Virus record (IMG/VR): IMGVR_UViG_3300025645_000248
Coordinates: 1-33,296 of that record
Source: a virus
Direction: 5' to 3' (one strand)
Length of the DNA stretch: 33,296 nt
A program made the translations under genes and the position numbers. The notes beneath the pieces were generated by a model. That model saw only the letters and a list, made by a program, of their open reading frames with translations, was not told the origin of the DNA and did no database searches. Shown here piece by piece: positions 27,137-33,296 of the stretch. How positions within the stretch are numbered: position 1 is the first letter of the stretch; every line of letters begins with the position of its first letter.

Positions 27137-28389
27137 GATCCTGCACCTTTCAACGAGTCTTTAATCAAATTCATATTCATAATCCATTGACCCCCTCTAT
27201 CATACTGATGATTTATTGATTCGACAATAAAGAAACCTGAATACGTTTCATGCTCTTCTACGTTACCTGTCGCAACGTTAGGATTAGGTAAATCGATTTT
27301 TATCATATCGCCAACACGTATTTTGAATGATCCGTAAGCCTGTGCGTATACGTTAATCATATCAAAGTAATAATTTGAAGATACACGCTTTGGCAAAATT
27401 TCGTTGTAATAGCTTTCTGGCTTTGTCGTGTCATTGAACACAATAAAACTTTGTAGAACATTATCATCACCAAAAAACTCTCTTGTGAAGTTAGTTGTGT
27501 GTAATGATCTCTGTGTATCGTCTACCGATTCCTGCTCGTCACGACCTTCATAGTGCTTATACACATTCTCTTCTATCGTCTTTTTAGAAAGGTCTAACAC
27601 CAGTGTTTTGTTAATCATACCACCGCGACGCATTTCACTTAGTAGATTGAAGCGTTTTGTTACTTTGTAGTCGATCAAGTTTTTCATAGACTCCTTTGGC
27701 GTAGATATGCCAACTTTGGGATCGATATATGTGAAGATTAGGTCTTCTGGGAAATTGTTCTTGTCTACACGTGCAATCAACTCGTCATATGTAATAAACT
27801 TGAAATCATCACGCGTCTCAAAAAACTTGAATGTTGATGATGGGCTTCTATCGGTGTATGCTTTTCGGGCAAGAAACATCATCGTTTCATATGGAGTCAA
27901 TGCTGGAATAACTAGTGTTTGAATTCCGTCTGTGCTTTCAATATCAATATTCTTTGTTTGTGTGAAGTATTCGAGATATACCTGATAAACTGACGTATCA
28001 ATGTTATTTGTAAACGATCTTCTTATCTCACGAGATTCTGTAAAAATGAAGTCCTTTGAATACAGTGACAGCGTATATGTTAGCTTCTTCGAAGCATAGT
28101 CCTGATTGACTTGACCTATATTATACACTTGAAATTCATAAGTTTTCTCTACACCATAAAAATCTTCTATGACAAAAGTAATAGTCTCTTCTCCCTGTAT
28201 GGGAAACTCGTCAATCAAATTTGTCGTATCAAGTATAGTTACGCTTGCAGATACCATGACCTGATTTATGCCTTCGCTAATCGAAAAGGACAATATAAGA
28301 TCGTATATATCGGTCGCCTTTGTCTTGTCATAGTTTTCTATGATGCACGATTTTACATAGAAAAAACCAGGTCCAATTTCTTTAGACAT
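27133..28389 (-). CDS. 27: Baseplate hub protein, gp27-like
   Basis: A 418-residue protein, similar in length to T4 gp27 (391). It shows the usual hub features: ASVTILDTTNLIDEFPIQGE near residue 47 and GSFKIRVGDMIKIDLPN near the end, followed by YSGFFIVESINHQYDRGG and a basic C-terminus. These phrases are typical of gp27/gpD-like hub proteins, which form a trimeric ring joining tail tube and spike. It sits between gp53 (8-base overlap) and the gp5-like gene (4-base overlap), exactly where a gp27 partner of gp5 would be expected. Sequence similarity to T4 itself is low, so the call leans on pattern and position. Confidence 0.78.
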   Translation of the reverse strand: MSKEIGPGFFYVKSCIIENYDKTKATDIYDLILSFSISEGINQVMVSASVTILDTTNLIDEFPIQGEETITFVIEDFYGVEKTYEFQVYNIGQVNQDYASKKLTYTLSLYSKDFIFTESREIRRSFTNNIDTSVYQVYLEYFTQTKNIDIESTDGIQTLVIPALTPYETMMFLARKAYTDRSPSSTFKFFETRDDFKFITYDELIARVDKNNFPEDLIFTYIDPKVGISTPKESMKNLIDYKVTKRFNLLSEMRRGGMINKTLVLDLSKKTIEENVYKHYEGRDEQESVDDTQRSLHTTNFTREFFGDDNVLQSFIVFNDTTKPESYYNEILPKRVSSNYYFDMINVYAQAYGSFKIRVGDMIKIDLPNPNVATGNVEEHETYSGFFIVESINHQYDRGGQWIMNMNLIKDSLKGAGS

Positions 28390-30327: not shown

Positions 30328-30996
30328 ATGGTTACTCCAGCAGTTGCACGTGCAGCTAGATTAGCAAGTACACTATTATCAGAAGATTCGCCGAGTAACA
30401 ATGTTTCGTTATTCGACGACCTTTTAACGAAAGGTGTACGCGCCGGTCAAATCCCTGCAAGGGAGAAATCTGCGCGTGAATGGTTCCGCGAACGCGCAGG
30501 TGAACAAACTCGAATCAATGAAAGAAGTTTGTTGCGTCAGGACCCTGATCGTTTAACGTCTCGACCACTTGTGGGTCAAATGTACATGTTCTATTATGAT
30601 GCAAAGCACAAAGAGTCGTTGCCTTACTGGGACAGATTTCCACTCATTTTTCCATACAAAAAAGTTAATGGTGGATTTATGGGAATTAACTTGCACTATC
30701 TTCCTTTGAATTATCGTGCAATTCTTATGGATGCTATGTATACGACATCCAATAATAAAAAATATGATGAGACTACACGATTAAAACTCAATTATCAAAC
30801 ACTGAATAACGCGTCTAAGTTTAGATACTTCAAGCCTACTGTCAAGCATTACCTGACCGATCACGTTAGAAGTAAGTTCATGTACGTATACCCAAGCGAA
30901 TGGGATATTGCATTGTTCTTACCAACCGAGAGATTTGTCGGAGCAAGAAAGACGAAAGTGTTCGCGGATTCAAGAAAGATCATCAAGGATAGCTAA
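30328..30996 (+). CDS. Conserved T4-type virion protein, possibly gp2-like DNA end protector
   Basis: A protein of 222 residues with a basic, helical N-terminus (TPAVARAARLASTLLSED, later EKSAREWFRERAGEQTR). The middle has the striking block QMYMFYYDAKHKESLPYWDR, FPLIFPYKKVNGGFMGINLH and YLPLNYRAILMD, which I associate with conserved proteins of marine T4-like phages, sometimes annotated as gp2-like DNA end protector; this naming is tentative. T4 genes 2, 4, 53 and 5 are clustered, which fits this place. I choose the ATG at 30328 because AAAGGA lies 6 to 7 bases upstream; the ATG at 30310 would have almost no leader behind the late promoter, and no RBS. Confidence 0.6.
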   Translation: MVTPAVARAARLASTLLSEDSPSNNVSLFDDLLTKGVRAGQIPAREKSAREWFRERAGEQTRINERSLLRQDPDRLTSRPLVGQMYMFYYDAKHKESLPYWDRFPLIFPYKKVNGGFMGINLHYLPLNYRAILMDAMYTTSNNKKYDETTRLKLNYQTLNNASKFRYFKPTVKHYLTDHVRSKFMYVYPSEWDIALFLPTERFVGARKTKVFADSRKIIKDS

Positions 30997-31802
30997 TGGC
31001 ATTTAATGTATCAGAATTCAAATCCACAATTTCAAAACATGGTCTTAAAGGAACAAACAAGTTCGTCGTGAACATGTCCCTACCGCCTGCAATGAGTGCA
31101 AACTTTGATGATCCGTTGTTCAGACAGGAGAGCGATTCATCTAGAACTGCAGCCCCAGAAGTCGCAGATCCTCGTCTACTGCAGATGCTTTGTGACACAG
31201 CAAACATCCCAGGCAAAAATCTTGAGACAATAGATTATAAGCCCATGGGATACGGTGGCATATCAAAAATGCCAACAGGTGTTTCTATGGATAGCTTAAA
31301 TCTTACGTTCATGTTAGACAGTGATCATCGTGTCGAGTATTTCTTTCAGTATTGGTTGCAGGAGATTATCAACACAGGTAGTATATTAAGTGGTCCTGCG
31401 GCAACATTCAAAAACAGAACTGCGTTTGAGATGGCATATAAAGATAACTATGTGTGCGAACTTTCATTACGCTTCTTTGCCGATGAGGGTAAATTCATCG
31501 AATATAGATTTATGGATGTTTATCCAGTACAAATAGGATCAGTGCAACTTGGATGGGAACAGAATGACCAAATCGCAAGATTGCCAGTTGAATTCACTTA
31601 TTATTCGTATGACGTATTTCAAGGCAAGCTTGATTATCCAGTCAATGATACACGAGGTAACAACCTGTTTCAGACGATTGCTGTACTCGGTTCGGTTGCA
31701 GGTGTTATAAATAACATTAGAAGACCCAGAAGTGTACAAGACGCGATTAACCAATTTACACGTATCGATAACTTGTCAAAGAACTTGGATAGAATATTTT
31801 AA
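30996..31802 (+). CDS. Tail tube initiator-like protein (gp54/gp19-type fold)
   Basis: A 268-residue protein. Key stretches are KHGLKGTNKFVVNMSLPP, LLQMLCDTANIPGKNLET and DSLNLTFMLDSDHRVEYFFQ followed by YWLQEIIN. This 'NIPG ... LTFM.D....E..FF.YW' pattern is that of T4-type tail tube proteins and their relatives. It is longer than gp19 (163 residues) and lies in a hub and tape-measure operon, so a gp54-like tube initiator fits better than the main tube subunit, but the two cannot be separated firmly by eye. The start overlaps the upstream stop (TAATG). The C-terminal ~50 residues are basic and helical. Confidence 0.68.
   Translation: MAFNVSEFKSTISKHGLKGTNKFVVNMSLPPAMSANFDDPLFRQESDSSRTAAPEVADPRLLQMLCDTANIPGKNLETIDYKPMGYGGISKMPTGVSMDSLNLTFMLDSDHRVEYFFQYWLQEIINTGSILSGPAATFKNRTAFEMAYKDNYVCELSLRFFADEGKFIEYRFMDVYPVQIGSVQLGWEQNDQIARLPVEFTYYSYDVFQGKLDYPVNDTRGNNLFQTIAVLGSVAGVINNIRRPRSVQDAINQFTRIDNLSKNLDRIF
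31706..31713 (+). promoter_or_regulatory. Possible late promoter (TATAAATA) for gp26/gp51/tape measure
   Basis: An exact TATAAATA on the plus strand inside the end of the gp54-like gene, about 110 bases before the gp26-like start. It could give the chaperone and tape-measure genes a separate transcript. A chance match is possible. Confidence 0.4.
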
Positions 31803-31822: not shown

Positions 31823-32521
31823 ATGGCATTACCAAAGATTACATCTCCTACATTTAGTGTAGAGCTACCGTCGAATAAACGCAAGATCAAGTTCCATCCT
31901 TTCACAGTGAAAGAAGAGAAGATGCTACTTATGGCTGTAGAATCTAATGATACTGATTCGGTATCAAGTACGATTAAACAAGTCATGAATAACTGTCTTG
32001 TAGACGAGTTAGATATCGATGAACTTGCAACATTTGATTTGGAATATCTCTTTCTACAACTTCGCGCAAAATCAGTTGATAACATCATTGAATTGAAAAT
32101 AAAAGATGATGATGACGAAAATATGTATGAAGCCACTGTTAATCTTGATGACGCATTTGTAGATTTCTCTAAGAGTCATACAAATAAGATTCAGTTGAAT
32201 GATACAGTATGCATCACTATGAAGTATCCAACATTCAATACGATATCAAAAATGTCAGATGATAATATCAAGAACGATCTAGTTGAAATTGTATCAACGA
32301 GTATAGATAAAGTTGTTGATGGTGATGAGTTGTATGAGTTGACCGATTTTTCTAAGGAAGAGATTGCTTCTTTCATCGAATCATTCACTTCAAAAAATAT
32401 GCGCGAAATTGAAAAGTTCTTTCAAACGATGCCTAAATTGAAACTAGATGTAAAGTATAACGCCAATGGCAAAGAAAAAACAAAGGAGGTTGTCGGTCTA
32501 CAAAGTTTTTTTACCTCTTAA
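31823..32521 (+). CDS. 26: Baseplate hub assembly protein, gp26-like (T4_baseplate family)
   Basis: A 232-residue protein (T4 gp26 is 208). The N-terminus KRKIKFHPFTVKEEKMLLMA and the following TFDLEYLFLQLRAKSV are hallmarks of the T4_baseplate family (gp26). An acidic middle (KIKDDDDENMYEA) and a helical C-terminus (FIESFTSKNMREIEKFFQ) follow. In T4 these proteins help hub assembly and are not all found in the finished tail. The gene ends one base into the ATG of the next frame. Its last codons hold a T TTT TTT slippery site in the zero frame, so a 292-residue fusion with the next frame is possible (see separate entry). A GAGG site lies upstream of the ATG. Confidence 0.85.
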   Translation: MALPKITSPTFSVELPSNKRKIKFHPFTVKEEKMLLMAVESNDTDSVSSTIKQVMNNCLVDELDIDELATFDLEYLFLQLRAKSVDNIIELKIKDDDDENMYEATVNLDDAFVDFSKSHTNKIQLNDTVCITMKYPTFNTISKMSDDNIKNDLVEIVSTSIDKVVDGDELYELTDFSKEEIASFIESFTSKNMREIEKFFQTMPKLKLDVKYNANGKEKTKEVVGLQSFFTS

Positions 32522-32557
32522 TGAGTCACAATAGTCTTTCGAACTATTATAAACTCA
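32484..32557 (+). promoter_or_regulatory. Candidate programmed -1 frameshift signal
   Basis: Three elements line up. AGGAGGT at 32484-32490 is a full Shine-Dalgarno-like match with no start codon at a usable distance. Fifteen bases later the heptamer T TTT TTT (32506-32512) lies in the gp26-like frame as X XXY YYZ. Nine bases after it begins a two-part hairpin: TGAGT (32522-32526) pairs with ACTCA (32553-32557), and AATAGT (32530-32535) with ACTATT (32543-32548) around a 7-base loop. After a -1 slip, the frame reads Tyr-Leu-Leu and then enters the next gene at its ATG without a stop. The hairpin is AT-rich and not strong. Confidence 0.7.
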
Positions 32558-32703: not shown

Positions 32704-33296
32704 ATGGCAGATAACGCATTACCAAGAATTGCAGATAATACTGAATTGAGCGCATCCATTGCGTTAGATTCGTCAAAAATATTGTCAAGCATTCAATACA
32801 GTATCGATGAAATGGCTCTATCGATGATGGAGTTTGTGGAGTTTCAGAGGTCTGAAGCTATTAGATCAAAACTTGCTGCTGATAATCTGGCAGATTCTCT
32901 AAAGGGATCTGATAAGAGTGATAGCATGTCCGATAAAGAGGGTGGTAGTGATAATACATTTATCTTCGCTGAACTTGGTATTCTCGGTGCTGCAGCCGCA
33001 GCCCTTATAGGAACGACAATAGGCGTCATTCGAGGTCAGATAGGCGTCATTAAATCGTTTGCGAATGCGGCTAAAGCATTTACACCCAAATTTATTATGA
33101 ATATCGTAGCAGGCGTGAAGACGAAACTATCAAATGTGATAGGCATCTTCACTAAATCTATAGACTCTATTGTTGATTTTTTGAGAACTGGTATCGACGT
33201 AGGTGTGCAAAGAATTGCATCATTGTTTAATTTTGCTGACGATTCCGCGTTGGGAAGATTGGCGTCCGCATTTAAAGCATCCTTTGACGCGCTTGC
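32704..33296 (+). CDS. Tape-measure / hub protein, gp29-like, N-terminal part (runs off right edge)
   Basis: An open frame from the ATG at 32704 stays open to the right edge (197 codons seen). Features are a helical start (SASIALDSSKILSSIQYSID), a Ser/Asp/Lys-rich linker (DSLKGSDKSDSMSDKEGGSD), a hydrophobic segment at ~88-107 (AELGILGAAAAALIGTTIGV) and long amphipathic helices after it. That combination, directly after tail-assembly chaperone genes, is typical of tape-measure proteins, which set tail length and sit in the tube with the hub. In T4 the equivalent is gp29. Direct sequence similarity to T4 is not visible to me, so the call rests on layout and position. Confidence 0.7.
   Translation, partial: MADNALPRIADNTELSASIALDSSKILSSIQYSIDEMALSMMEFVEFQRSEAIRSKLAADNLADSLKGSDKSDSMSDKEGGSDNTFIFAELGILGAAAAALIGTTIGVIRGQIGVIKSFANAAKAFTPKFIMNIVAGVKTKLSNVIGIFTKSIDSIVDFLRTGIDVGVQRIASLFNFADDSALGRLASAFKASFDAL

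Follow-up and report, generated by a model that had tools for sequence, protein, structure and literature searches.

A candidate −1 frameshifted tail-assembly chaperone gene of the T4-like TAC-N/TAC-NC type in an uncultivated virus

Gene content of the locus

The window, that is, the whole stretch of DNA analysed, comprises 33,296 nucleotides of the IMG/VR virus record IMGVR_UViG_3300025645_000248. On its plus strand, an open reading frame of 232 codons (31823–32521) encodes a gp26-like protein of 232 aa, assigned as the short form of a tail-assembly chaperone (TAC-N) and matching PF12322 (T4_baseplate, E 1.5e-53) and phrog_150 (E 1.6e-61); no useful match was obtained from NCBIfam. The virus is uncultivated, and its TAC-N is closest to that of Sinorhizobium phage phiM12 (about 50% identity). 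The AlphaFold model of the protein had a pLDDT of 90.5.

The reading frame ends in ...GTC GGT CTA CAA AGT TTT TTT ACC TCT TAA. The slippery heptamer T TTT TTT is located at 32506–32512, in zero-frame codons 228–230 (AGT TTT TTT), at the position and in the frame given by a preliminary description of this DNA. The two flanking elements reported there were also recovered: a Shine–Dalgarno-like AGGAGGT within the coding sequence, 15 nt ahead of the heptamer (32484–32490), whose best duplex with the 3' end of 16S rRNA has an energy of −12.2 kcal/mol, and a two-part hairpin starting 9 nt 3' of it (32522–32557; −8.2 kcal/mol, z −1.8), the stability of which is modest when taken alone. Both are likely frameshift stimulators. 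The zero-frame stop TAA (32519–32521) lies two sense codons past the heptamer and overlaps, as TAATG, the ATG (32521–32523) of a 59-codon open reading frame.

Read in the −1 frame from 32512, the sequence continues to 32700 and specifies a gp51-like extension, TAC-C, of 62 residues (YLLMSHN...NNK). The reading Tyr-Leu-Leu followed by the 59-codon frame, as first proposed, is thus correct, and the predicted fusion, TAC-NC, has 230 + 62 = 292 residues. The extension matches phrog_634 (E 3e-25, profile positions 60–117 of 121) and, weakly, the C-terminus of phrog_150 (positions 241–280 of 282), and it has a motif in common with the C-terminus of T4 gp51. The alignment of the −1 product to the end of the phrog_150 profile suggests that some members of this family may carry both parts in one chain.

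Directly upstream of the TAC-N gene, a tail tube protein gene was found on the plus strand (30996–31802; phrog_45, E 1.5e-33). The gene that follows on the same strand (32704–33296) is cut by the end of the window; it is present entire in an overlapping contig (L001) that is identical over the gp26-like protein. Its product of 615 aa (L001:1019–2866) matches the tape-measure families phrog_4200 (E 1.1e-10) and phrog_1272 (E 8e-7), as well as a gene of phiM12 (E 7e-24) whose annotation states similarity to tape measure, in agreement with the tape-measure gene assumed in the preliminary description. A single-stranded DNA-binding protein gene on the opposite strand comes after it in L001. The putative chaperone pair is therefore placed between the tail tube gene and the tape-measure gene, as membership of the T4-like TAC-N/TAC-NC type requires.

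Taken by itself, the sequence of the window is only suggestive of frameshifting. Its genes contain 20 in-frame X XXY YYZ heptamers, only two of which have a −1 frame that outruns the stop of the gene. A second in-frame T TTT TTC, on the minus strand at 28360–28366, falls in codon 8 of a gp27-like gene, is followed by 10 open −1 codons and looks incidental. Away from the candidate slip site, the phage seems to avoid slippery T runs: TTTTTTY occurs 4 times in the window against 23 expected from dinucleotide shuffles.

Slip site and flanking signals in related phages

A total of 138 frameshift-type loci was gathered from IMG/VR and from annotated phage records and reduced to 105 at 90% identity. 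They comprise loci of Kyanoviridae and of Sinorhizobium, Pelagibacter, Methylophilales, Vibrio, Aeromonas, Pseudomonas and Stenotrophomonas phages, together with IMG/VR contigs. An in-frame T TTT TTY, located 0–2 codons ahead of the stop, was kept in 102 of these 105 non-redundant relatives (partly inspected by hand), as T TTT TTC in 92 and as T TTT TTT in 10. The gp51-like domain was open in the −1 frame in every heptamer-bearing relative, two being cut by contig ends. At the level of sequence, this conservation is far beyond chance, and the comparison supports the −1 slip and the fusion that had been postulated from the window.

Codon usage at the site is equally constrained. The first Phe codon is TTT in 102/102 relatives, compared with 71% in the remainder of these genes (p 1.5e-15), and the second is TTC in 92/102, compared with 29% elsewhere (p 1.5e-35), although these p-values overstate the strength of the result because the loci are related and not phylogenetically independent. 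The codon before the Phe-Phe (FF) pair ends in T in each of the 102.

Neither a lost heptamer, nor another register of the second frame, nor an independent start, named beforehand as patterns contrary to frameshifting, was general among the relatives, and the second frame was always in −1 where the heptamer was present. The heptamer is missing in two distant relatives, Vibrio phage K475 (L071:3700–3730) and Pseudomonas phage Cygsa01 (L086:4285–4315), both with the second open reading frame in −1 and a TAATG overlap; these phages may have switched to coupled re-initiation. In Stenotrophomonas phage IME-SM1 (NC_054952; L069:3730–3745) the second domain lies in +1/−2 and the annotated reading frame is shifted. 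Its slip site is one T shorter than that of phage Moby, which is 97.5% identical and has a proper heptamer and the −1 frame. A different type of frameshift was rejected for IME-SM1, the shift being traced to the T that Moby, its near twin, has and IME-SM1 lacks; the missing base is probably a sequencing error or a fresh indel.

With respect to the upstream element, the commonest form in the relatives consists of conserved Glu-Gly codons, GAG GGN, which place GAGG 7–9 nt before the heptamer. This Glu codon is GAG in 74 cases and another codon in 12, against 529 and 1292, respectively, elsewhere in the genes (p 1e-26). A Shine–Dalgarno-like duplex (≤ −5) was found within 36 nt upstream in 92% of relatives and in 26% of control stretches of the same genes. 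The element 15–16 nt upstream, present in the window and in phiM12, is farther from the heptamer than in most relatives. Thus, the comparison of the junction suggested at the outset showed the heptamer and the −1 frame to be kept, while AGGAGGT at 15 nt proved to be the version of a subgroup.

Folding of the downstream region was stronger in relatives (mean z −1.9 against shuffles) than in controls (−0.24). Covariation was analysed in 50 loci of the cyanophage class whose stem includes an ATG. In this class, a stem of 10 bp located where the window has its hairpin was 82.9% paired, in contrast to 30–46% for slid stems, and its 31 double-change cells exceeded all 500 shuffles. Judged by composition and arrangement, the Shine–Dalgarno-like site, the heptamer and the hairpin are the classic three-part bacterial −1 frameshift signal, and a stimulatory action of the site and the hairpin is likely.

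Relation to T4 genes 26, 51 and 28

Of the T4 proteins, gp26 (208 aa) matches the N-terminal part of phrog_150 only. The match of gp51 (249 aa) covers almost the whole of phrog_150, and gp51 matches the gp51 family as well. Profile comparison with the frameshift-type family gave values of 99.8% for gp26 and 98.4% for gp51, and of 99.4% for gp26 and gp51 with each other. The slippery heptamer was absent from all 14 T4-type gp26/gp51 genes examined; T4 gp26 retains the FF pair, encoded as TTC TTT. In T4, then, gp26 corresponds to the short form and gp51 to the short form plus the −1 domain, encoded by two separately started and divergently transcribed genes. A T4-type gp51, which is naturally fused, was modelled by AlphaFold with a pLDDT of 82.9; the order of secondary structures is similar in this model and in that of the window TAC-N, and gp51 has additional C-terminal helices. 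On these comparisons, T4 would carry as two genes what the window virus makes from one. One T4-type contig has a gp51 match (L058:5001–5746) that is interrupted by 16 stops in the frame given for it, which suggests an indel, either in the record or in the gene itself.

Additionally, a comparison of profiles showed T4 gp28 to be similar to gp26 (hhalign 90%, E 1.8e-6, 116 columns), and T4 gp26 also matches the gp28 family phrog_1140 (E 9e-4). T4 gene 28 (L048:8349–8882) directly precedes the tape-measure gene 29, and homologues were found in five further sequences (L073, L078, L080, L081 and L087). A third chaperone paralogue may thus be represented by gp28. In RefSeq, Acinetobacter phage AM101 already has gp26, gp51 and gp28 alike named 'tape measure protein assembly chaperone'. 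In the literature, T4 gp26 and gp51 are listed as hub assembly chaperones, gp51 being missing from the final particle, and genetic evidence that the T4 hub contains gp26 is cited (PMC3004832).

Proposed chaperone synthesis and relation to known systems

The heptamer, the −1 frame, the flanking signals, the neighbouring tape-measure gene and the match to T4 gp26 and gp51 together indicate, with a probability of roughly 0.93, that the gp26-like gene of the window encodes a tail-assembly chaperone produced as TAC-N and TAC-NC by programmed −1 frameshifting and working like lambda G/GT. Most ribosomes would terminate at 32519–32521 and release the short form of 232 aa. A minority, probably paused by pairing of AGGAGGT with 16S rRNA behind and by the hairpin ahead, would slip on T TTT TTT, both Phe-tRNAs moving back one base, and would continue in the −1 frame to the 292-aa TAC-NC. 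On the model of lambda gpG/gpGT, short and long forms alike would coat the tape-measure protein encoded next to them, and the C-terminal domain that only the long form has would recruit tail-tube subunits, the slip rate fixing the ratio of short to long form. The T4 lineage would obtain these two forms from the separate genes 26 (short) and 51 (long).

Coupled re-initiation would instead yield a free gp51-like protein of 59 aa, by termination at the TAA at 32519–32521 and restart at the ATG at 32521–32523. The TAATG overlap of the window would permit it, an ATG occupies the same place of the −1 frame in 56 of the 102 heptamer-bearing relatives, a separate gp51 is annotated in GenBank records of relatives, and K475 and Cygsa01 have TAATG without the heptamer. 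However, an ATG is lacking close to the junction in about 44/102 relatives, and about 24/102 do not contain ATG, GTG or TTG among the first 12 codons in −1; all of these relatives nevertheless preserve both the −1 frame and the heptamer. Because so many relatives have no start codon at the junction, independent initiation cannot be the general explanation, and the view that the annotated separate genes are the rule was rejected. Moreover, the annotated gp51 of phages HTVC008M and Melnitz starts late, so that the start of the domain is lost; the upstream Shine–Dalgarno-like site lies about 30 nt from the ATG, too distant to serve it; and T4 has the same domain inside a fusion. Re-initiation is consequently considered improbable for the window.

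The invariance of FF in frameshift-type proteins might also mean that the pair is kept for protein reasons alone, with an incidental heptamer and a gp51-like frame that is a decaying remnant. This is hardly credible, as the choice of FF codons departs sharply from that in the rest of the genes, T4-type gp26 can keep the pair without a heptamer, and wherever the heptamer is found the −1 domain is conserved and intact, apart from the contig-end cuts mentioned above. Transcriptional slippage, by which the T run would gain or lose bases in the mRNA and join the frames without ribosomal frameshifting, draws on the pure run of seven Ts at the window site and is very improbable. In 92/102 relatives just six Ts are present, followed by C, and a run of six is shorter than those known to cause slippage of bacterial RNA polymerase. 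It was rejected because the run is short and ends in C; besides, the strict codon register, together with the Shine–Dalgarno-like site and the stem downstream, is characteristic of ribosomal slippage.

Programmed −1 frameshifting, the preferred reading, agrees with earlier work on this gene family. Tail-assembly chaperone genes of T4-like phages, including the two-gene solution of T4, were identified by Vladimirov, Gautam and Davidson (2022, Virology 566:9–15), as reported in PMC12846349 and PMC10274946. According to these later papers, both citing that study, T4-like TAC-N genes bear poly-T slippery sequences (PMC12846349) and some T4-like phages rely not on frameshifting but on two genes, a short one and a long fused one (PMC10274946). 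As far as these accounts of it extend, the T4-like TAC-N/TAC-NC system and the window locus belong to the same gene family, both having a poly-T site for slippage close to the 3' end of TAC-N and a C-terminal domain in −1, and nothing in the window is different in kind. The abstract of the 2022 study reportedly names T4 genes 26 and 51. The correspondence of T4 gp26/gp51 with G/GT, described as worth testing when the window was first read, can thus be considered answered, by an answer already in print: on the same accounts, both the frameshift mechanism and the link to T4 genes 26 and 51 were published in 2022, and the discovery was largely made before.

Regarding lambda gpG/gpGT, the likeness lies in two products made from one start by −1 slippage and in the adjoining tape-measure gene; the slippery sequence of lambda differs from that of the window. 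The lambda pair arises by programmed −1 frameshifting (Xu, Hendrix and Duda 2004, as summarised in PMC5009743). Sequence and fold searches returned no solved-structure match for the window TAC-N or the T4-type gp51 model, lambda G lying outside the direct comparison, and the search of predicted viral structures returned gp26-/gp51-type baseplate hub proteins and many unnamed phage proteins. Of the lambda link first proposed, the layout and a functional likeness are therefore supported, and membership by homology is not. The TAC locus of Vandenendeviridae and Andersonviridae, which are other phage families, is similar to the window locus in arrangement: it lies ahead of the tape-measure gene, and a conserved GTTTTT motif close to the 3' end of TAC-N serves for a −1 frameshift (phage Adele paper, PMC12846349).

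A wider reading is put forward tentatively and is on balance doubtful. According to it, outside the T4 group the three-part signal of GAGG, T TTT TTY and covarying hairpin would set the ratio of short to long form, and the T4 lineage would have resolved the recoded gene into the paralogues gp26 (short) and gp51 (fused long), probably with gp28 as a diverged third copy ahead of gene 29.

In public records, gp26 and gp51 of many marine T4-like phages are annotated as two separate baseplate hub genes. For most such phages this annotation is probably wrong, and one gene with two products would be present. Such a reading would explain why cyanophage gp51 has only about a fifth (~20%) of the length of T4 gp51 (Sullivan et al. 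2010, PMC3037559), and it provides a model, open to testing, of T4 genes 26 and 51, whose part in hub assembly has long been obscure. The window would add a further, uncultivated member to the known T4-like TAC-N/TAC-NC chaperones.
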